Source: a virus
DNA: 25,671 nucleotides
Virus record (IMG/VR): IMGVR_UViG_3300043436_000900
Location: 1 to 25,671 of that record
Direction: 5' to 3' (one strand)
Positions 29 to 23,648 of this stretch are shown here, in pieces. The notes under the pieces were generated by a model that ran no database searches, was not told the DNA's origin, and saw nothing but the letters and a program-made list of their open reading frames with translations. Position numbers and translations under genes: made by a program. Positions within the stretch are counted from its first letter, which is position 1. Every line of letters starts with the position of its first letter.

Positions 29-373
29 CTAACCCCCATAGGTGTGCTTCGTCTTCTTGCCGTGGCAAGAGCGGCACAAGACTGCGAGCAGGTGCTTGGG
101 CACCACGGGCGACTGCCCCGGCTGCAGCGGCGTGATGTGGTCAACGGTCAGGTCAGTCGTCGCTCGACATGCGAAGCACCACGGGAACTCTTCACGCATC
201 TCACGGCTCAACTTGCGCCACTCAGGGTCAGCGTAGGGGCTGCGCCCGACTGGCCCGTATCGCTCACGCTCTCGCTTCGTCACGATCTTATTGGCGCAGG
301 GCTGGCAACGGTTGCCGACGCGCTGCAAGATTCCGCAGGTCAGGCACGCACGGGCGAAGCGTAGGGGACTCAC
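29..373 (-). CDS. HNH endonuclease with N-terminal zinc-ribbon cysteines
   Basis: The protein has 114 residues. The N-terminal part has two cysteine pairs (C-L-T-C and C-Q-P-C), which suggests a zinc knuckle. The C-terminal part is a typical small HNH nuclease: 'DPEWRKLSREMREEFPWCFAC', then 'LTVDHITPL' carrying the catalytic histidine, and 'LCRSCHGKKT' completing a C-x2-C...C-x2-C zinc site around the beta-beta-alpha-metal fold. The family cuts or nicks DNA, and in phages it often acts in packaging or as a free-standing homing nuclease. The GTG start at 373 forms a GTGA overlap with the upstream metallopeptidase stop. It is not next to the terminase genes here, although genome circularity could bring it close to them. 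Confidence 0.85.
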   Translation of the reverse strand: MSPLRFARACLTCGILQRVGNRCQPCANKIVTKRERERYGPVGRSPYADPEWRKLSREMREEFPWCFACRATTDLTVDHITPLQPGQSPVVPKHLLAVLCRSCHGKKTKHTYGG

Positions 374-2557: not shown

Positions 2558-2766
2558 GTCTGACCATCCCGCTGGAGCATTGCGCCCAGCTTCACCATCA
2601 TGGCGCTCATTGCGTTGCTGAGGGTGTCGGCTTCAACGGTCAAAGTCTGCCCGTCATGGTCTTCGCACTGCAGGGTGACCTTGCGAGTCTCCGTGTCGAT
2701 GCTGCAGTTGGCGTAGCGGAAGCCAACCATCTCCGCCATAGTCTCAAGTTCGCTCAGTTCGCTCAT
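2545..2766 (-). CDS. Small acidic hypothetical protein
   Basis: The protein has 73 residues. The ATG at 2766 overlaps the dNMP kinase stop as ATGA, which fixes the start. Its N-terminus is acidic and Met-rich ('MSELSELETMAEMVGF'). A two-strand pattern follows ('RKVTLQCEDHDGQTLTVEAD') and then an amphipathic helix ('LSNAMSAMMVKLGAMLQRDG'). It has no catalytic motif, signal or membrane segment, and I recognise no family. Confidence 0.6.
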   Translation of the reverse strand: MSELSELETMAEMVGFRYANCSIDTETRKVTLQCEDHDGQTLTVEADTLSNAMSAMMVKLGAMLQRDGQTWQE

Positions 2767-3323
2767 GCTTCAACCTCCAAGTGTGCCGCCTCAAGAACGG
2801 CTGCGATGCACTCTGACGGACTCAGTGCCTCCGTGTCAAGAACTAACTCAGCCTCCATGTCGCCAGCCTGTCGCTCCGTGATGTCATGCTGCCACGTCTG
2901 TTCTTCCCCGACCGGGGGGCGCACCAGCCGCACGAAGAGCGTGTCGGGGTACCACGCCGCAATGAAGGCCCGCTCAGCGTCCAGCCTGACGTCGTCCACC
3001 ACGAAGGTGATCGGGTCAAGGGTGCCGTCATCAGCGCCACGCTTCGTCCGAAGAAGCCACACGCGCATCCAGAAGAGCGAGTCCATCTCACGGAGAGCAG
3101 CCCCGATCTCCTGCAGCAGCTCACGCCCAGTCAGCAGGCGAGAGAGTCCCAGCGTCTGCTGCGGGTACTTCATAGCCTTGTCGAACTTGCCATACGCCAT
3201 GACGGCGATCTCACGAATCGGCGCTGCGATGCTGGTGACCTCAAAGCCGTGATGCTCCGAGAGCATCTGGCTCAGGGTCGTCTTGCCAGTGCCTGCCTTG
3301 CCAATGAACGCCACGCTCCTCAT
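2763..3323 (-). CDS. Deoxynucleoside monophosphate kinase-like P-loop protein
   Basis: The protein has 186 residues. The Walker A loop 'GKAGTGKTTLS' lies at 8-18, an LID/substrate region contains 'TGRELLQEIGAALREMD' (about 65-81) followed by W-M-R, and a Walker B-like strand reads 'ITFVVDDVRL' (about 105-114). This arrangement matches phage dNMP kinases (T4 gp1-like), which phosphorylate dNMPs to dNDPs to feed phage DNA synthesis. Some members handle modified nucleotides. The ATGA overlap with the upstream replication-like gene supports the start. Substrate specificity cannot be read from the sequence. Confidence 0.75.
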   Translation of the reverse strand: MRSVAFIGKAGTGKTTLSQMLSEHHGFEVTSIAAPIREIAVMAYGKFDKAMKYPQQTLGLSRLLTGRELLQEIGAALREMDSLFWMRVWLLRTKRGADDGTLDPITFVVDDVRLDAERAFIAAWYPDTLFVRLVRPPVGEEQTWQHDITERQAGDMEAELVLDTEALSPSECIAAVLEAAHLEVEA

Positions 3324-3754: not shown

Positions 3755-4120
3755 TTACTCCTCCTCCTTCAGATACTCGCTGACCTTCGCATCATGCGCC
3801 GCGAGATGTGCATAGTAGGGCAGCCCTTGATTGCATAGTCGGCAAAGCAGCCCACGAACTCTGCCCGTTGCATGGTCATGGTCGATGTGCACGCCACCGT
3901 GCTTGCGACCATCCGCGTGCAAGTTGATGACTTCGCTGCAGATAGCGCACTGACCATGTTGACGTTGATGCATGGCTTGCAGCTCATAGACGGTCAATCC
4001 GTAGAGCCGCGCCCGCATGCGTAGCAGGCGAAGTTGTCGCTGCTCAGGTGTCTCCTTCTCTCGCATACGCCTACCCCATAGGGCCTGCGGCGTCGCCAAG
4101 ATGTGCGGTCGTCTTCCCAT
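3755..4120 (-). CDS. Recombination endonuclease VII-like nuclease
   Basis: The protein has 121 residues. It has a basic N-terminus, then 'YGLTVYELQAMHQRQHGQC' (40-58), C-A-I-C (58-61), 'HIDHDHATGRVRGLLCRLCN' (78-97) and a final helix with 'AKVSEYL'. This is the standard order of the T4 gp49 endonuclease VII family: zinc held by two C-x2-C pairs, and a His-me active site at the D-H-D-H motif. The family cleaves branched DNA such as Holliday junctions and debranches DNA before packaging. The start is fixed by a strong GGAGG ribosome site before the ATG at 4120. It sits directly after the annealing protein, which fits its role. Confidence 0.85.
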   Translation of the reverse strand: MGRRPHILATPQALWGRRMREKETPEQRQLRLLRMRARLYGLTVYELQAMHQRQHGQCAICSEVINLHADGRKHGGVHIDHDHATGRVRGLLCRLCNQGLPYYAHLAAHDAKVSEYLKEEE

Positions 4121-4882: not shown

Positions 4883-5379
4883 AGTGCCTCCTTCTTGGGG
4901 AAGAGTCCCCAGTCGTTCAGTTCTTCGATCGGCTTGAGCCACTGTGGCGCCCGACCGTTGCCGAAGTCAGTCTTCGGACTTGCCTTGAGTGCTTCCAACC
5001 CTGCGACGTCCAGCCAACCCACGATGCGCTTGACTGGCCCGTTGCCAGTCACTAGCACGTGAGTCTCGTGACGCCCTTCGTTGCGGACGATGAGCCCAAT
5101 GCCCGACGTCCACTTCACCTCCACTCCGCCGAGCCACGGCACCTCCACGTCGGGCTCGTTGAGATAGGTGTCGATGTTTGCCGACCATGGCAACCCGAGA
5201 GCGATGCATACTGCCAGTTCAGCAGCTGCGCCGTCAATGTGATTCTGCAGGCTGCGGTCAGGTGATTGCCCTGCGCGCCCCTGCTGCCCCTTCGCCTTGC
5301 TGGATTCGTCACGCGCGGTGCCGACCTGCTTGGCGTGCGCCCACTCGTACGGGTCAAGGATGATTGTCTGCTCAGTCAT
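4879..5379 (-). CDS. PD-(D/E)XK-like protein of unknown function
   Basis: The protein has 166 residues. 'NHIDGAAAELAVCIALGLPW' gives a helix with Glu. It is followed by 'EPDVEVPWLGGVEVKW', in which Asp and E-V-K are spaced as in the PD-(D/E)XK nuclease core, and then by a strand ending in 'HVLVTG'. Catalytic residues therefore appear present. Similar small phage proteins near recombination genes are usually left as hypothetical. Its start at 5379 overlaps the exonuclease gene by 8 bases, with a GGAGG ribosome site. It could be a structure-specific or restriction-like nuclease. The cellular role is not known. Confidence 0.55.
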   Translation of the reverse strand: MTEQTIILDPYEWAHAKQVGTARDESSKAKGQQGRAGQSPDRSLQNHIDGAAAELAVCIALGLPWSANIDTYLNEPDVEVPWLGGVEVKWTSGIGLIVRNEGRHETHVLVTGNGPVKRIVGWLDVAGLEALKASPKTDFGNGRAPQWLKPIEELNDWGLFPKKEAL

Positions 5380-6322
5380 GAAGCCCTCCGTCGTTGATGA
5401 TGAAGCGGCGCGAGCCGGGCTTCACGTCCGTGTAGGTGGTGATCACTGACTGCAGTGCACCTGATGCCTGCGCGACCATCTTCCAATCCGTGACTTCGGA
5501 CGGGCGTGCCTGCTTCCAGTACACCGTCCAGCCGTTGCCAGCCAGCCCCGCCTTCTCGCCGATCGCCTCCTTGATGATGATCTCAAGCGAGCCCTTCTTC
5601 TGCTCCAAGAAGTGCAGCTCAGTGTTCACTTCACGGAGTTGCGCGTAGACGCGCTCCAAGTCAGGCGTCGCTTCCACGAACTCCTGCGAGCCCTGCGGCG
5701 TGGCAATGGCGAAGGCTTGAGCGTCTAGTGCTTCCAACTGCGGCGGCGTCTTAGAGTCCACGGCTGCCAAGAAGAGCAGCGCCGCGCGCTGAATCTCCTC
5801 CCAGAGCACGGGGTCAAACTGCACGCGCTCGATCTTGAACACCAGCCCGCCGAGCAGGGCGACGACGTCGCACCAGTCAGCGCCGACGATGCCCATCTGC
5901 ACGTGTGTCTGGATGACGACCTCAGGCGGCACGGGCCACATGCTCCAGCGTGGGCTGGCTGACGTCTTCACCTCAACGATGCCCTTGGGCTCGCCGACGA
6001 TGGTGCGATCCAGCGACGCCATGATCCGGGGCTGCGCCTTCAGTCGGACGATGCCGTTCGACTTGCGCAACTTCACGCCGCGCTCCTGCTCGTAGTACTG
6101 CGCCACGGCATCCTCAAGGATGACGCCACGGTTGGCAGCGGCTCCGACCTTCTGCTCTGGGGTCGCCCCAGTCTTCTCAGCCCAGAGCTGGTAGGGCGTC
6201 TTATACGGGCTGACGCCCATCACTGCCGCCATGTCAGACGCTCCCAGCCCCTGACGTCGCAACTCCAGCCACTCGGGGCTGCGCTGCGGTGCCTTGACGA
6301 ACTCAAACTGCTTCTTGCTCAT
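5372..6322 (-). CDS. YqaJ-type phage exonuclease (lambda exonuclease fold)
   Basis: The protein has 316 residues from the ATG at 6322 (ATGA overlap, GGAGGGAAAGCA ribosome site). Residues 13-50 hold 'RSPEWLELRRQGLGASDMAA', the start of the YqaJ domain. The catalytic set follows: E in 'RGVILEDAVAQYYE' (about 70), D in 'MASLDRTIV' (about 105) and 'GIVEVKTSAS' (E-V-K at about 117-119), then 'VVIQTHVQMGI'. The family degrades double-stranded DNA 5' to 3' and hands single strands to an annealing protein, here the Rad52-type gene. The C-terminal ~100 residues contain a predicted coiled coil and a small beta domain, as usual for the phage type. Confidence 0.9.
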   Translation of the reverse strand: MSKKQFEFVKAPQRSPEWLELRRQGLGASDMAAVMGVSPYKTPYQLWAEKTGATPEQKVGAAANRGVILEDAVAQYYEQERGVKLRKSNGIVRLKAQPRIMASLDRTIVGEPKGIVEVKTSASPRWSMWPVPPEVVIQTHVQMGIVGADWCDVVALLGGLVFKIERVQFDPVLWEEIQRAALLFLAAVDSKTPPQLEALDAQAFAIATPQGSQEFVEATPDLERVYAQLREVNTELHFLEQKKGSLEIIIKEAIGEKAGLAGNGWTVYWKQARPSEVTDWKMVAQASGALQSVITTYTDVKPGSRRFIINDGGLHD

Positions 6323-6510
6323 TGCTTTCCCTCCTTCTTTCTGTCTTGCTTGGCCCATCCTTCGCCCTTGAACTGCACGCTGCTTGGGCTGATCTGCAGC
6401 TGCATCCACGCCCCGCATCCGTCGCAGCGCGGCACTACGGGCTGGTATCCCGTCTGTAGTCGCTCCTCAGTGGTGCAGCACGTCCAGCACTCGAACACAT
6501 AGAGCGGCAT
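6319..6510 (-). CDS. FmdB-like zinc-ribbon protein
   Basis: The protein has 63 residues from the ATG at 6510, fused to the upstream stop as TAATG. It starts 'MPLYVFECWTCCTTEERLQT', continues with 'PRCDGCGAWMQLQIS' and ends 'FKGEGWAKQDRKKEGKQ'. This is the regular layout of FmdB-family regulatory zinc ribbons: M-P-x-Y-x-F-x-C-x2-C, a second C-x2-C, and an F-x-G-x-G-W/F tail. These proteins are thought to bind nucleic acid or act as small regulators. The role in phage is unknown. Confidence 0.75.
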   Translation of the reverse strand: MPLYVFECWTCCTTEERLQTGYQPVVPRCDGCGAWMQLQISPSSVQFKGEGWAKQDRKKEGKQ

Positions 6511-10541: not shown

Positions 10542-10721
10542 TTACTCCTTGCCCCAACGTAGGGGCCCTGTCACTGCCCACAATGCGAGCAGCACTAAGA
10601 TGCTGATGCCGACGAAGTCGCGCGTGCCAGACTCCGGGAGCACGATAAAGGCGGTCGTCATCCCCAGCCACGTCCAGCTGGACGCCGCAAGGTCGAGTGC
10701 AAAGTCCTTCAGATGCTTCAC
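10542..10721 (-). CDS. Holin candidate with two membrane helices
   Basis: The protein has 59 residues. The GTG at 10721 forms a GTGA overlap with the upstream exported-protein gene, behind an AAAGGGAAAG ribosome site. Two hydrophobic segments, '[17 protein letters not shown]' (13-29) and '[17 protein letters not shown]' (36-52), are linked by a short charged turn (E-S-G-T-R-D). The N-terminus is charged and the tail ends 'LRWGKE'. This is the classic size and layout of a class II holin, which forms the membrane lesion that triggers lysis. The endolysin candidate lies two genes downstream. Confidence 0.7.
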
Positions 10722-11707
10722 TGCTTTCCCTTTCGTGAGCCTCCGATTGACGCCGCACCAGCCGCCGCAATAGCCGCCTGAGCGACTTGCGTGATGATGA
10801 CTGCGGGGATGATTGTAGCGGCTGCCTGCTTCTTTTCTTCAGGCGTCAAGTCGTGTCCAAGATTCCCGACGAACGCAGCGGCTTCGCTCAACGCTTCGGC
10901 GACGGCTTCGGCTGCAGCGCCGGGGTCAATCACCAGCGGCTCGGGCGTAGGCTCAGGAGAAGGCACTGGTGAGGGTTCTTCAGAAGGCTCTGGGAGGGGT
11001 GTTTCCGCCACGCTGGGGCTAGGTGAAGGGGATTTTGGGGTAGGTGTAGGGGTCGGCGTAGGCGTCGCCGTAGGGCTCGGCGCTACGGTTGGCGTAGGAG
11101 AAGGCTCAGGGCTAGGAGTAGGAGCAGGGCTAGGTTCAGCCGTAGGAGTTGGCGAAGGCTCAGGTGATGGTGTCGGCTCGGGCGACGGCTCGGGTGTGGC
11201 AGTCGGGTTCGTGGACGGTTCAACACTTGGCACCTCAATGCTTGGCTCCACGGATGGGAGCGGGCTTGGCTCTGGTGATGCTGGCACGAAGTCGGGGTCA
11301 GTGATGGTCAACACACCAGCGCCGCAGCAGGTGTCCAGCGCCCACACTCTGAAGCCGTAGACGTCCCCCGGCATGACGTCCAACTGGATGCTGCCGTTGC
11401 CTTGCTGCCCTTGCTGCATCAGGTCAGTGGTGACGCCGTTGATGACGAACTGCGGGCGGTCGAACCATGCGCCGTCAATGGTGCTGTACGCCCACAAGAA
11501 CGCGATGGTGCCAGCGGCGTCAGCCGTGGTGGAGTAGGTGACGGTGTTGGAGCCCACGCCAGCGTCGGGGCCAGTGATGACGAAGCCGCCGTCTACGAGC
11601 TGCACGCTGCCATTGAAGGTAATGTCAGCAGTCCAGTCGGATGCGATGACGGGCACTGCACGCAGCAGCACGAAGGCAGCCAGCAGCGGGATGAGTACGC
11701 GGCGCAC
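10718..11707 (-). CDS. Exported proline-rich protein with C-terminal membrane anchor
   Basis: The protein has 329 residues from the GTG at 11707 (TAGTG junction). A longer GTG start at 11731 is possible but would bury the signal. '[20 protein letters not shown]' followed by I-A is a strong signal peptide. Residues about 24-145 form a beta-rich domain with two adjacent cysteines (D-T-C-C-G-A-G). About 110 residues of Pro/Ser/Thr/Glu repeats ('[16 protein letters not shown]' style) follow, then an Ala-rich helix and a terminal hydrophobic segment '[19 protein letters not shown]' with a basic tail (R-K-G-K-Q). The predicted state is a type I membrane protein with a stalked outer domain. It lies among lysis genes, so it may aid lysis (a spanin-like bridge) or coat the host surface. 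The family is unknown. Confidence 0.7.
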
Positions 11708-11892
11708 TACTTGCCCTGCGATTGCAGCCACGCCAGCAGCGCGCCGATTCCCCCAACTCCGAGCATGGCACCCAGTGCCCGAAGGACGGCGAGCCCGCCC
11801 CGCATCTCGTCAATCTGGCTCTGCAGTTTGTCGATCTTCGCGCTCTGCGAATCTAGTCGCTCAATGATCGCTTCGGCTTGACTGCGGGTCAT
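11707..11892 (-). CDS. Coiled-coil plus one-helix membrane protein (XhlA-like holin accessory candidate)
   Basis: The protein has 61 residues from the ATG at 11892 (ATGA overlap). Residues 1-32 form a heptad-like helix ('[20 protein letters not shown]'), and residues about 33-56 are hydrophobic ('[20 protein letters not shown]') before a short polar end. This is the layout of XhlA-type hemolysin/holin accessory proteins, where a cytoplasmic coil is tethered by a C-terminal helix. Its place at the head of the lysis cassette supports the idea. Confidence 0.6.
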
Positions 11893-19737: not shown

Positions 19738-20871
19738 TTAGACGTTGGCGCCCTTGAACGTCTTCACGGCGTTAGGGTCAATGAGCCCGGTCGCGCCACG
19801 GAGAATTCCGCGATACGAGATGAGCCCTGTTCCGAACGCGAACGATCGGTCAGCTTCGATTGCAGGCGCCCCAGCGATGGCAGTGTACACGCTTCCAAGA
19901 TCGCCAAATGCGATCGAGAGAGCTTCGTCACCGTTGTCGACGAGAGCGGCTGAATACACTGGGAAGCCAAGGATCGTGTCTGGGCGGTTCTGATCGCCCG
20001 GCACGAAGATTGGTCGGCTTGCGCCGTCAACGAGTCCCATGACTGCACCAAGCGTGGTGTCGTTCATGAGGAAGCCGCGCTTCGCAGCGCGACGATACTG
20101 CTGCTTCACTGAATAGATGAGGCTGACAAGGTTCGCGTAGGTTGGGGCAACTGCCGCACCCTGAACGCCAACCGTTGCCGCAGCGGCAACAGCAGGAGCA
20201 GCAACTGCCCCGTGCGCGACGCTGAGTTCAGCAGCCAGCTTCTCCGTGGCCCATGAGGCTACGTCGAACATCTGGTCCTGAACAGTCTCGATACCGACCT
20301 GAAGAAGTGAAGCGTACTTCACTGGCGTCAGGCTGAGGGACGAGTTCGTGCCGTCCGACTCACCGATCGACGAGCCTTCGGAAACTGCGGCTGCAGTGCC
20401 GAGAGCGGTCGTTCGTGGAAGAGCAAGAACGTTGCCCTTCTCGAGCTGGATGACGGAAACAACGGCAGGGTCAACGAACGGGTTGACCTGACCAGCGGTG
20501 ATCCAGAAGCGGTCACCCTGCTCAACTGCCTGCGTGAAGGTCGCCTTCGTGATGTCACGAAGCTCAACCGTGCCGCCGTCTCGGGCGATTCGGCGAAGCT
20601 CAGCGGACAGGTCGCGGGTCGACTCAGCAGCCGGGGCGAAGGCAACAGCCTTCTCCGAGCGTGCAGCGTCGGCTGCGGCGCGGGCCTCAGCAGCGATCTT
20701 CTCTGACTGGATTGCGGAAGCAACAACTGAAGCCTCCGAAGTAAGGGCGTCAAAACGAGCCTGAGCCTCAGCCGTAAGGGCTTCGCCCTTGGCTGCGGCG
20801 TCTGCAACGATGCCCGAAGCATCAGTCAACAGCGCGGCGCGCTTCTCAGCCAGATTCTTGACGGTGTCCAT
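19738..20871 (-). CDS. Major capsid protein (HK97 fold)
   Basis: The protein has 377 residues, ATG at 20871 with an AAAGGAG ribosome site. Residues 1-75 form a long Ala/Glu-rich coiled coil ('SEASVVASAIQSEKIAAEAR'), the delta domain that acts as a scaffold and is cut off by the prohead protease. The shell domain follows, with the family's 'GTAAAVSEGSSIGESDGTNS', 'KYASLLQVGIETVQDQMFDV', 'GFLMNDTTLGAVMGLVD', 'TILGFPVYSAALVD' and 'IAFGDLGSVYTAI'. An Ala/Val-rich stretch ('HGAVAAPAVAAAATVGVQGA') in the A-domain region is unusual. Neighbouring protease and portal genes agree with the HK97 system. Confidence 0.9.
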   Translation of the reverse strand: MDTVKNLAEKRAALLTDASGIVADAAAKGEALTAEAQARFDALTSEASVVASAIQSEKIAAEARAAADAARSEKAVAFAPAAESTRDLSAELRRIARDGGTVELRDITKATFTQAVEQGDRFWITAGQVNPFVDPAVVSVIQLEKGNVLALPRTTALGTAAAVSEGSSIGESDGTNSSLSLTPVKYASLLQVGIETVQDQMFDVASWATEKLAAELSVAHGAVAAPAVAAAATVGVQGAAVAPTYANLVSLIYSVKQQYRRAAKRGFLMNDTTLGAVMGLVDGASRPIFVPGDQNRPDTILGFPVYSAALVDNGDEALSIAFGDLGSVYTAIAGAPAIEADRSFAFGTGLISYRGILRGATGLIDPNAVKTFKGANV

Positions 20872-20976: not shown

Positions 20977-21726
20977 TTATCCCTTCAACTGCTCCAACTT
21001 CAGGCGGGCTGCCACAATGGTGTGGTGCTCGCCAGCCGGGGCAGTTGTCTCAGTGACGACTTCCTGCTCGGGTGCTGCGCCCAACTTGGCGCGCACTGCA
21101 TCGAGCAGCGCCGTCTGATCAGCGTCAAGTGCGTTGCCAGCCTTGACGGCTTCAAGTGTCTCAACGAGAGCGTCGCCGTCCACGCCGATCTTGCTCGGCG
21201 CGATCTTGCGCACGGCGGTCAAGCCGAGCGTTGCCGGGTAGGCGGGCGTGTGCCCCGAAAGTGTTGAGACTTCAAGCAGCCCAATCTCCGTCAGGGTGCG
21301 GCTGCCGTCTTCGTTCCACTGCTGCCCGTTCTTCGGCACGGTGAACCCGAAGGACATGCCCATTGCCTTGGCTTCGTTCGTCAGCTTGCTGATGACGGCT
21401 GCGGCGTCTGGGTCGGCTGGGTCAAGGCGAGCCTCAACCTTCAAGCCAACGGCATCTTCGCTCAGGGTCAGGCGCCCGCTCGCGGTCGTTGCCAGCATGC
21501 GGCTCTCATCATGACCATGCAAGAATTTGATGACGCGGCGCCCCTGCTCCGCCTGCTTGATAGCGCGCGCGAAGGCACCGTTGGCAATGCGCTCGATGAA
21601 GGGCAGCCCCTGCGATTCCGCGCCGAAGACGGCGGCGTATCCCGTGAAGGTCTTCTGTCCGTCTTCGCCTTCGGTGACGGTGAAGTCGCCGAGCGGCAGT
21701 GCGCGTGTTTCGTGCTCTCGTGCCAT
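20977..21726 (-). CDS. Prohead protease (S78 family), internal-start product
   Basis: This nested product has 249 residues and starts at an internal ATG (21726) preceded by GAGGAGAACTCA, a strong ribosome site with ideal spacing. It contains the HK97-type protease core: 'KTFTGYAAVFGAESQGLPFI', 'ANGAFARAI', 'FLHGHDES' with the catalytic histidine (about 72) and 'AMGMSFGFTV' with the serine (about 125). It processes the capsid delta domain during maturation. The C-terminal ~75 residues are acidic and end in a helix. Confidence 0.8.
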   Translation of the reverse strand: MAREHETRALPLGDFTVTEGEDGQKTFTGYAAVFGAESQGLPFIERIANGAFARAIKQAEQGRRVIKFLHGHDESRMLATTASGRLTLSEDAVGLKVEARLDPADPDAAAVISKLTNEAKAMGMSFGFTVPKNGQQWNEDGSRTLTEIGLLEVSTLSGHTPAYPATLGLTAVRKIAPSKIGVDGDALVETLEAVKAGNALDADQTALLDAVRAKLGAAPEQEVVTETTAPAGEHHTIVAARLKLEQLKG

Positions 21727-22479
21727 TGAGTTCTCCTCAAGCTGCGTTGTGTTGTTGATACTATCCGCCCAAGCCAGCACGCGATCCGCGCCGTTTGTGT
21801 CTACGGGATTGACGCCCCAGAGTAGGGCGGCAACGGCTCCGGGGCCCGGGAAGTTTTCGTCTTCTGGGTCGCTGTTCTGAGGGACGCCTTCCCAGTCACC
21901 ACGGTGTCGGCGAATCCACGCCGCCATGCGAACGACCTTCTCGTCATCCACGCGCCCGTCGGCAAGTTGGCGCGCTTCTCGGATGGTTGCATCCTGCAAG
22001 CCGTCTCCGCCGAGCCCGCCTTCGTAGGCTTCGAGTCCAGCCTTCGCTGCAGCTGCGACGTAGTTCGGCACGTTGACAATGGCGCGCTCTTCGTCCGTGA
22101 TGAACTGCTCTGGGGTGTAGGCTTCAATCCCCAAGCCCTGCGCCATCTCGCGCACGGCTGGATCGTTGTCGATTGCGTATTCAATCTCTGAGCCGTACTG
22201 CTCTTTCAGAAGTCCATACTTGTATTCTTTGAACGCCAGCCCAGTGGCGAAGGCGCTGCCCTCAAAGTCGTTCAGGTGAATCTCCTCAACGCCAGCCACG
22301 CCGTACTCCTGCAACCACGCGCGTGTCTCAGTCAGGCGGTCGATCTTGCGCGCGCTGACGATGATGACCTGCGTCTCGCCGCTCATGACTTTCTCGTTCA
22401 GTGCGTCAATCAGTGGCTGGTTCGGCTGCTCGTTCTCCAGCACCAGCGTGCCGTCTAGGTCGACGATCACGTAGCTCAC
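20977..22479 (-). CDS. HAD phosphatase - conserved domain - prohead protease fusion
   Basis: The full-length product has 500 residues, GTG at 22479 overlapping the portal stop (GTGA). Residues 1-125 form a HAD-type phosphatase like the 3'-phosphatase half of polynucleotide kinase: 'YVIVDLDGTL' (D7, D9), 'IIVSAR' (39-44), K near 86-92 and 'AIDNDPAV' (102-109). Residues about 130-225 form a conserved region with 'VPNYVAAAAKAGLEA', 'GDGLQDATIREARQLADG', 'MAAWIRRHRGDW' and 'FPGPGAVAALLWG', which I recognise as a recurring phage motif of unknown role. Residues 252-500 are the prohead protease. All motifs are intact, so this is not a decayed gene. How a phosphatase serves head assembly is unknown. 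Confidence 0.8.
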   Translation of the reverse strand: MSYVIVDLDGTLVLENEQPNQPLIDALNEKVMSGETQVIIVSARKIDRLTETRAWLQEYGVAGVEEIHLNDFEGSAFATGLAFKEYKYGLLKEQYGSEIEYAIDNDPAVREMAQGLGIEAYTPEQFITDEERAIVNVPNYVAAAAKAGLEAYEGGLGGDGLQDATIREARQLADGRVDDEKVVRMAAWIRRHRGDWEGVPQNSDPEDENFPGPGAVAALLWGVNPVDTNGADRVLAWADSINNTTQLEENSMAREHETRALPLGDFTVTEGEDGQKTFTGYAAVFGAESQGLPFIERIANGAFARAIKQAEQGRRVIKFLHGHDESRMLATTASGRLTLSEDAVGLKVEARLDPADPDAAAVISKLTNEAKAMGMSFGFTVPKNGQQWNEDGSRTLTEIGLLEVSTLSGHTPAYPATLGLTAVRKIAPSKIGVDGDALVETLEAVKAGNALDADQTALLDAVRAKLGAAPEQEVVTETTAPAGEHHTIVAARLKLEQLKG

Positions 22480-23648
22480 GCCTGCGGCTCCTCACCTACG
22501 GTGCCGATGTTCAGCGGCTGGCGGAAGGCGTCACCATCAGGGCCCACTGGCGGGCGATCCTCAAGGGTGCGCACTTCGTTCAGGCTGAGGAAGCCGTTGT
22601 TCAATGCGACGGCGTAGGCGTCGAATCGCTCCTTCGTCAACGGTCGCAGCATGCTGTCAACGTTGAACTTGATGAAGGTGGTGTCGCCAACGATGAGCCG
22701 CTGGAAGCCTGCTTCTAGCCGAGCGATCAGGCTGCCGAGTCCCAAGGTCAACCACTCTCGTGAGATGATCTCAAGACTATTGAAGCTGGAGTTGCCCCCG
22801 GGCAGCTGTAGAAGATGCAGCGGTACGCCGTAGAGTCGGGCGATCGCCTGCGTGCCTGCTTCCATGTTCTCAACGATTGCCAAGTCTGACGGGTTGAAGC
22901 CCATGCTCTTGAAGTCGGCGCCGCCCGTCAGCACTGCAACCTTGTGCATGTTGCGCAGCCCTTCGTGACGTCGTCCGAACGATGCGCGCAGGCTCTCTGC
23001 CTGATCCGCAGTGAGCTCCCCCGGCACGGTCACGAGCCCGCTGACGGATGCGCCCTGCTCGAAGAACTTCGCGGCGTACTCTGTCGTCGCCTTGGCAAGT
23101 CCGAGCGTTGTCTTGTGATGCTCAACTGGTGAGAGCCCGCGCAAGTCTTCGCCGACTCCGAAGAGTGTGATGTGCACGATGTCATCAGCCGTCAAGTCAA
23201 CGGCGCCCGCCGTCGTCTTGACGCGGTAGATTGGCGCACCGTTCTCGCCGCGCAACACGGTCACCTTTCTCGGATCAAGGAGGCGAATCTCGACAATCTC
23301 GGCACCATCACGCAGCACCATCAAGAAGGCGTTGCCGTCAATCATCAAGCTGCTGACGGTGCGATGCATCAGGTCGAAGCGGGTGTAGTTCGGATTGTTC
23401 GGCACTGGATTGTCAAGCCAGCGTGGGCGGGTCACTGGACGGCGTACGCCACGGTCACGGATGAAGACGCCGACTGGCATCGTTGCAACGGTGTCGGCGT
23501 AGAGTTTTACGGCAGCGTACAAGGCCCCGATTGTGGTGGCGTTCTTCTCGTTGAGACTGGTGCCTGCGGCGTCGACTTCAACGTTCCACATGCCGCCGAC
23601 GGCTCGCTCTTCGCTCTGACGTCCAAGAAGACGGTCAACGATTCCCAC
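22476..23648 (-). CDS. Portal protein (HK97 type)
   Basis: The protein has 390 residues, GTG at 23648 with an AAGGAG ribosome site. Features of the family are clear: 'ALYAAVKLYADTVATMPVGV', 'HRTVSSLMIDGNAFLMVLRD', 'EIRLLDPRKVTVLRG', 'KVAVLTGGADFKSMGFNPSD', 'AIARLYGVPLHLLQLPGGN' and the C-terminal 'GFLSLNEVRTLEDRPPVGPD'. The dodecamer sits at the head vertex and is the DNA channel. Gene order terminase-portal-protease-capsid is the HK97 standard. Confidence 0.9.
   Translation of the reverse strand: MGIVDRLLGRQSEERAVGGMWNVEVDAAGTSLNEKNATTIGALYAAVKLYADTVATMPVGVFIRDRGVRRPVTRPRWLDNPVPNNPNYTRFDLMHRTVSSLMIDGNAFLMVLRDGAEIVEIRLLDPRKVTVLRGENGAPIYRVKTTAGAVDLTADDIVHITLFGVGEDLRGLSPVEHHKTTLGLAKATTEYAAKFFEQGASVSGLVTVPGELTADQAESLRASFGRRHEGLRNMHKVAVLTGGADFKSMGFNPSDLAIVENMEAGTQAIARLYGVPLHLLQLPGGNSSFNSLEIISREWLTLGLGSLIARLEAGFQRLIVGDTTFIKFNVDSMLRPLTKERFDAYAVALNNGFLSLNEVRTLEDRPPVGPDGDAFRQPLNIGTVGEEPQA

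Follow-up and report, generated by a model that had tools for sequence, protein, structure and literature searches.

In the analysed window, a stretch of 25,671 nucleotides of viral DNA, one frame of 500 codons joins a phosphatase of the HAD type, a helical middle domain (MID), and a prohead protease of the S78 family, and a conserved start inside this frame would allow the protease to be made also alone. The gene is read here as a nested one that encodes a plain protease and a protease-tethered fusion whose phosphatase enters the procapsid as cargo, a role to which about even probability is given. Such an arrangement points to the protease as a possible vehicle by which further enzymes reach the virus head. 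All domain families of the fusion except MID are already known. The coordinates of the features are collected in Table 1.

Table 1: Features of the fusion gene and its neighbours in the window.
Feature	Position	Strand	Details
Portal gene	22476..23648	-	PF04860, E 5.9e-74
Shine-Dalgarno site GAGGAG of the long form	22488..22493	-	8-nt spacer
Long-form start GTG	22477..22479	-	GTGA, 4-nt overlap with portal stop codon
Fusion ORF, 500 aa: HAD + MID + S78 protease + C-terminal tail	20977..22479	-	start GTG
HAD phosphatase domain, T4 Pnkp 3'-phosphatase-like, residues 1–126	22102..22479	-	profiles, AlphaFold model, structure matches, catalytic residues
MID, residues 133–242, helical, recurs on phage head proteins	21754..22083	-	profiles, model
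Flexible linker (low-confidence), residues 248–266	21682..21738	-	model pLDDT < 50
Shine-Dalgarno site GAGGAG of the internal start	21733..21738	-	6-nt spacer
Internal start ATG, residue 252, begins predicted 249-aa protease	21724..21726	-
S78 prohead protease domain, residues 255–420	21220..21717	-	His323 and Ser376 conserved
HK97-fold major capsid protein gene	19738..20871	-	PF05065, E 5.2e-27

Gene Order and Host

The genes stand in the usual HK97 order of small terminase, large terminase, portal, fusion gene, and HK97-fold major capsid protein, and the fusion gene thus has the location between portal and major capsid protein that belongs to the S78 family features. The GTGA overlap of its long-form start with the portal stop codon is the same in 70 of 77 close relatives, where the start codons of the long form are mostly weak (TTG in 40, GTG in 28, and ATG in 9). 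Near this start, at residues 8–14 (22438–22458, minus strand; codons of LDGTLVL), the window's clade shows stronger synonymous conservation than anywhere else in the frame. Since the large terminase of the window is closest to those of phage phiPsal1 and Streptomyces phages and relatives of MID+S78 are present in a Microbacteriaceae MAG, an actinobacterial host is likely. The fusion-bearing phages form a widespread environmental group, probably with such hosts.

Domains of the Fusion

The presence of a HAD domain, a middle domain, and a complete S78 protease in a single frame, as proposed in the original prediction from the letters of the window, was confirmed by profile searches. Residues 270–418 match Peptidase_S78 (PF04586) with E 3.6e-29 and 102 bits (cut-off 21), and the NCBIfam model proheadase_HK97 (TIGR01543) gives 85.9 bits, which is above its cut-off of 59. 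The residues H323 and S376 are invariant in 47 divergent sequences, and both also align in stand-alone S78 proteases.

In the HAD part residues 4–121 match PHROG 415 "polynucleotide kinase" (E 1.2e-12), with several other HAD models matching weakly. The Pfam HAD_PNKP score of 18.7 bits is below the gathering score of 27.6, and for this reason the domain is called Pnkp-like and is not filed as a Pnkp member. The motifs D7-L-D-G-T and D104-N-D106, predicted earlier to be intact, are accompanied by S42-A-R44 and K84, so that the features of the HAD superfamily, namely, DxDGT, the Ser/Thr of motif II, the Lys of motif III, the acidic residues of motif IV, and a Rossmann-like fold, are all found. 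The AlphaFold model of residues 1–251 has a mean pLDDT of 88 with a HAD core, and its best Foldseek match in PDB is the 3'-phosphatase domain of T4 Pnkp. Sequence-only search of solved structures with HAD gave no significant match; comparison of folds did. In DALI-like scoring the top eight of 1000 PDB chains all belong to T4 Pnkp or bacterial Pnkp1 (Z 15.7–16.5, rmsd 2.0–2.1 Å over 117–120 residues, 22–24% identity), and non-Pnkp HAD families rank below with Z of 15.0 or less, the gap between the best match, T4 Pnkp 3'-phosphatase with Z 16.5, and the lipin/Nir2-type phosphatases being small. With Pnkp chains at the head of this ranking, the closest relative in fold is a nucleic-acid 3'-phosphatase; nucleic-acid 3'-ends are somewhat more likely than not as the substrate. 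The kinase domain, which forms the N-terminal half of bifunctional Pnkp, had no match within the 500 residues, HAD itself starting at residue 1–4.

The active-site residues, whose loss would speak for an incidental fusion, are retained almost without exception among distinct S78-fused HAD sequences: D7 in 149 of 150, D9, S/T42, and R44 in 150 of 150, and K84 and D104 in 152 of 152. At the position of R44 an Arg is also found in Pnkp of two phages. The median dN/dS is 0.16 for HAD, 0.11 for MID, and 0.07 for S78. Together with the kept catalytic residues, these low values indicate purifying selection on an apparently active enzyme. According to these data HAD is very probably an active phosphatase, and the earlier view of it as a nucleic-acid phosphatase agrees with its likeness, in model and motifs, to the Pnkp type.

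The middle domain has no match in Pfam; nevertheless, its conservation, also anticipated from the window, was found in the relatives of the fusion. It is dispensable, as HAD is fused directly to S78 in six loci (L272, L290, L307, L314, L315, and L320). Relatives of MID occur in capsid-protease fusions of Roseobacter and Synechococcus phages, in portal proteins and one prohead protease of haloarchaeal viruses, and in minor head proteins of Nodularia phages, and in two Verrucomicrobiota MAG contigs they precede a coiled-coil-like, scaffold-like protein. MID thus appears to be a head-association module. Among tailed viruses of bacteria and haloarchaea it is a widespread part of head proteins (L232:3605-3950; H118, H119, H165-H173; L406, L407).

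Internal Start and the Predicted Short Product

The internal ATG sits between the end of MID (about residue 242) and the start of S78 (about residue 255), and it aligns with the N-termini of S78 proteases that Labrenzia, Ruminococcus, and Halomonas phages encode as stand-alone proteins. The strong ribosome site that the original prediction placed at this domain boundary proved to be conserved beyond chance. It is kept across divergent relatives while the linker peptide varies (QLEENS-M, QKEINA-M, DREIID-M, and QTERFD-M), different lineages encoding it by different codons and with spacers that range from about 5 to 9 nt. The codon at residue 252 is ATG in 20, TTG in 23, and GTG in 6 of 57 representatives, with Lys in 6 and Phe in 2. 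All 23 Leu cases use TTG, against 26% TTG among Leu codons, and all 6 Val cases use GTG, against 38% GTG among Val codons. The six Lys cases have a GTG few codons upstream, in most of them after GGAG, and the two Phe cases (L078 type) are without an internal site.

The Shine-Dalgarno test covered 13 codons at the domain boundary, with equal windows elsewhere in the same frames as background, in 61 divergent representatives taken from all searches. A start codon (ATG, GTG, or TTG) combined with a Shine-Dalgarno duplex energy of at most −4 kcal/mol was present in 52 of these 61 against 20% in the background, and at −7 kcal/mol or better in 51% against 3.5%, the significance of such counts being overstated by the relatedness of the sequences. 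Comparison thus strongly indicates both proteins predicted from the window, and with high probability the gene has two products, the 500-residue fusion and the 249-residue protease, from two starts in use.

The short form is usual and not universal, because 5 of the 61 representatives have no start codon at all at the boundary (L078, L204, L266, L320, and L367); in total the internal start is missing in a minority of about 5–9 of the 61. In these few lineages the fusion alone must suffice, and the protease apparently exists in fused form only. Among the loci without internal start (the five named and L164) some have long Pro/Thr/Glu-rich linkers instead.

Retention of the Fusion in Relatives

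Full-length queries found full-length relatives down to about 60% identity, and the occurrence of these in many independent metagenome contigs rules out a chance fusion or assembly error. As full-length rankings favour HAD-bearing loci, the 249-residue protease was used alone as query, and among the 80 loci obtained HAD was in frame in 75 of the 76 with enough upstream sequence, which rules out search bias and likewise the possibility, raised together with the original prediction, that homologues always lack the HAD part. These loci comprise 67 with HAD+MID+S78, 6 with HAD+S78, 2 that bear HAD and are cut by the contig end, one complete frame in which other modules replace HAD (L394), and 4 too short to judge. 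Some contigs had loci fetched repeatedly, and the counts therefore refer to distinct sequences or come from single searches. No stand-alone HAD gene was obtained from HAD-only queries, which returned only HAD-S78 frames and contig-end or frameshifted fragments. The window-clade alignment gave no match when scanned against genome contigs, and a broader alignment gave seven loci.

Exchangeable Modules and the Sister Clade

The original prediction described one fusion, which is real; the description was incomplete in that HAD is exchangeable, MID is dispensable, and the internal start is missing in some lineages. In the S78 tree, built by a quick method from 64 rows, the window's clade (29 rows, support 100) has HAD in every row that allows a judgement; in the sister clade (35 rows), which includes the cultured Pontimonas phage phiPsal1, its distribution is scattered, and the tree has at least 7 changes in all. 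Members of the sister clade possess before MID+S78 varying sets of DUF2188-like, DUF3721, CxxC/HIPIP-like, Hva1_TUDOR, and DUF5824 modules, and some of them a second, divergent HAD behind the DUF2188-like module; within the window's clade DUF3721-like or CxxC modules stand between HAD and MID in L193, L210, and L216. Judged from the frames compared, the modules that can replace one another N-terminal to the protease, HAD among them, number at least six. The DUF5824-type module, which is common to unrelated phages, was seen before prohead proteases and also in unannotated proteins near the portal of other phages, e.g., Actinomycetia phage DSL-LC01 (loci L103, L118, L147, and L234:3590-4633).

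All 26 representatives of the phiPsal1 clade (including L157, L098, and L135) have a synonymous element, TAGA(A/C)T, at a distance of 43 nt upstream of the internal start. Its Arg codon is AGA in all 26, against 7.5% AGA among Arg codons, the preceding codon always ends in T, and the element often follows TGN, which is the geometry of an extended −10 promoter. The element therefore looks like a candidate internal promoter of the extended −10 type for the protease of this clade. The conserved TAG was ruled out as the stop of an overlapping frame, since the open frame that precedes it is anywhere between 0 and 72 codons long. The element is not conserved in the window's clade, and a scan of the window for an internal promoter found no sigma-70-like site.

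Proposed Mechanism and Alternatives

A ribosome that starts at the GTG at 22479, coupled to the portal stop, would synthesize the 500-residue phosphatase-MID-protease fusion, and one that starts at the ATG at 21726 would synthesize the plain 249-residue protease, which is predicted to perform ordinary head maturation. S78 proteases enter the procapsid, as established for HK97, and the fusion may co-assemble into it via its protease part with the phosphatase carried inside. During maturation, cleavage in the linker would probably free HAD-MID; this segment, modelled as flexible and adjoining the protease, offers itself for a cut, and no cleavage site was identified in the fusion. The freed HAD-MID may then stay in the head and act on nucleic-acid ends or be injected with the DNA. 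A phosphatase inside the head is given no more and no less than an even chance. The cargo role fits because modules are exchanged, catalytic residues are retained, and MID-like modules occur on other head proteins. More tentatively, and with somewhat less than even probability, maturation proteases may be general carriers whose swapped N-terminal cassettes, enzymes as well as binding modules, are loaded into the procapsid, cut free, and injected, the internal start, in one clade apparently together with a promoter, supplying cargo-free protease and so keeping the cargo dose low.

Other explanations were weighed against this one. The phosphatase may work at the procapsid during packaging, tethered by the protease near the portal, where it would heal 3'-phosphate ends or nicks with no delivery to the next host, as would suit its Pnkp 3'-phosphatase-like fold and active site and the position of its gene within the portal-protease-capsid operon; nevertheless, no link to the terminase was found, the Pnkp kinase half is absent, and the other modules that sister-clade phages have in this place fit poorly with a general packaging need, which makes such repair unlikely. 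T4 Pnkp, the best structural match, is a cytoplasmic enzyme that acts on cleaved tRNA, and the fusion could accordingly be a matter of co-expression only, with a cytoplasmic phosphatase, separated by proteolysis or left attached, whose targets in the infected cell could be, for instance, RNA or DNA ends produced by host-defence cleavage. This explanation is slightly less probable than packaging repair, because the late structural gene position and the coupling to portal translation imply activity late in infection, and the window genes examined included no ligase partner.

The N-terminal part may also be an assembly regulator that holds back protease activity or determines how many copies of the protease the procapsid receives, with HAD mainly as a structural block; it is always N-terminal to the protease, unrelated modules replace HAD in relatives, and the helical MID recurs on assembly proteins. 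A structural block, however, needs no near-perfect catalytic conservation such as that of the 150 distinct HAD sequences, and stand-alone S78 proteases manage without any N-terminal part, so that this is still a little less likely than co-expression. Very improbable is that the internal start is not used, GAGGAG being a chance product of a glutamate-rich linker, and that only the fusion is made. Some lineages indeed have no start there and the linkers are Glu-rich, but the codon stays ATG, GTG, or TTG through changes of amino acid, with Leu always as TTG, Shine-Dalgarno sites are enriched (85% versus 20%), and the site coincides with the canonical protease N-terminus.

Relation to Known Systems

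By scores, His/Ser residues, and gene order the C-terminal half of the fusion is a complete member of the HK97-type prohead proteases, from which the fusion differs by 251 extra N-terminal residues with an enzyme domain and by the predicted additional synthesis without them from the internal start. The likeness to T4 Pnkp 3'-phosphatase and bacterial Pnkp1 consists in the HAD fold (Z about 16), DxDGT, S-x-R, and the acidic motif IV; here the kinase domain is missing, identity is about 23%, and the enzyme is fused to a capsid protease. The phiPsal1 protein gp6 (MG835450), annotated only as prohead protease, shares MID + S78, the gene order, an N-terminal extension, and GTG/TTG internal starts with Shine-Dalgarno-like sites, while DUF2188-like and CxxC modules occupy the place that HAD has in the window.

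An in-frame internal start in a head-protease gene is known from lambda C/Nu3, where the S49-type protease is N-terminal and the short product is the scaffold. The fusion gene resembles it, at the sequence level, in the conserved internal start with ribosome site and in the C-terminal product, but its short product is the S78 protease. The architecture is also compatible with polyvalent proteins of phages and mobile elements, multidomain proteins whose shuffled domains, in some cases including protease domains, are encoded among late or packaging genes and for which packaging and injection have been proposed (Iyer et al. 2017, PMC5512222), whereas here the carrier would be the maturation protease itself. 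In a term search of PMC5512222 "prohead" occurred only in the reference list and "phosphatase" was absent. The original prediction named no described function for the combination, and no description of the HAD-S78 fusion, nor of its dual start and module exchange, was found in the open-access literature searched; searches of it for phiPsal1 or the DUF modules likewise brought up nothing that describes the architecture.

Provided that the fusion is packaged, the capsid protease would offer a route for loading enzymes into phage heads, a subject so far discussed mainly in connection with giant phages, T4 internal proteins, and MuF/polyvalent proteins; a nucleic-acid-end phosphatase would be available as soon as infection begins, and the system would represent a natural capsid-loading tag with built-in dose control. 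Annotators should note that the long ORF conceals where the protease really starts and that enzyme modules go unseen under the label "prohead protease".

Other Genes of the Window

An HNH endonuclease (29–373, minus strand) at the left end of the contig would adjoin the small terminase if the genome were circularly closed, as in HK97-like packaging systems. The replication part includes a deoxynucleotide monophosphate kinase-like gene (2763–3323), an endonuclease VII-like gene (3755–4120), and a YqaJ recombinase gene (5372–6418), all on the minus strand, and past the tail gene region a protein with a long Pro/Ser/Thr/Glu repeat stretch is encoded (10718–11731, minus strand).
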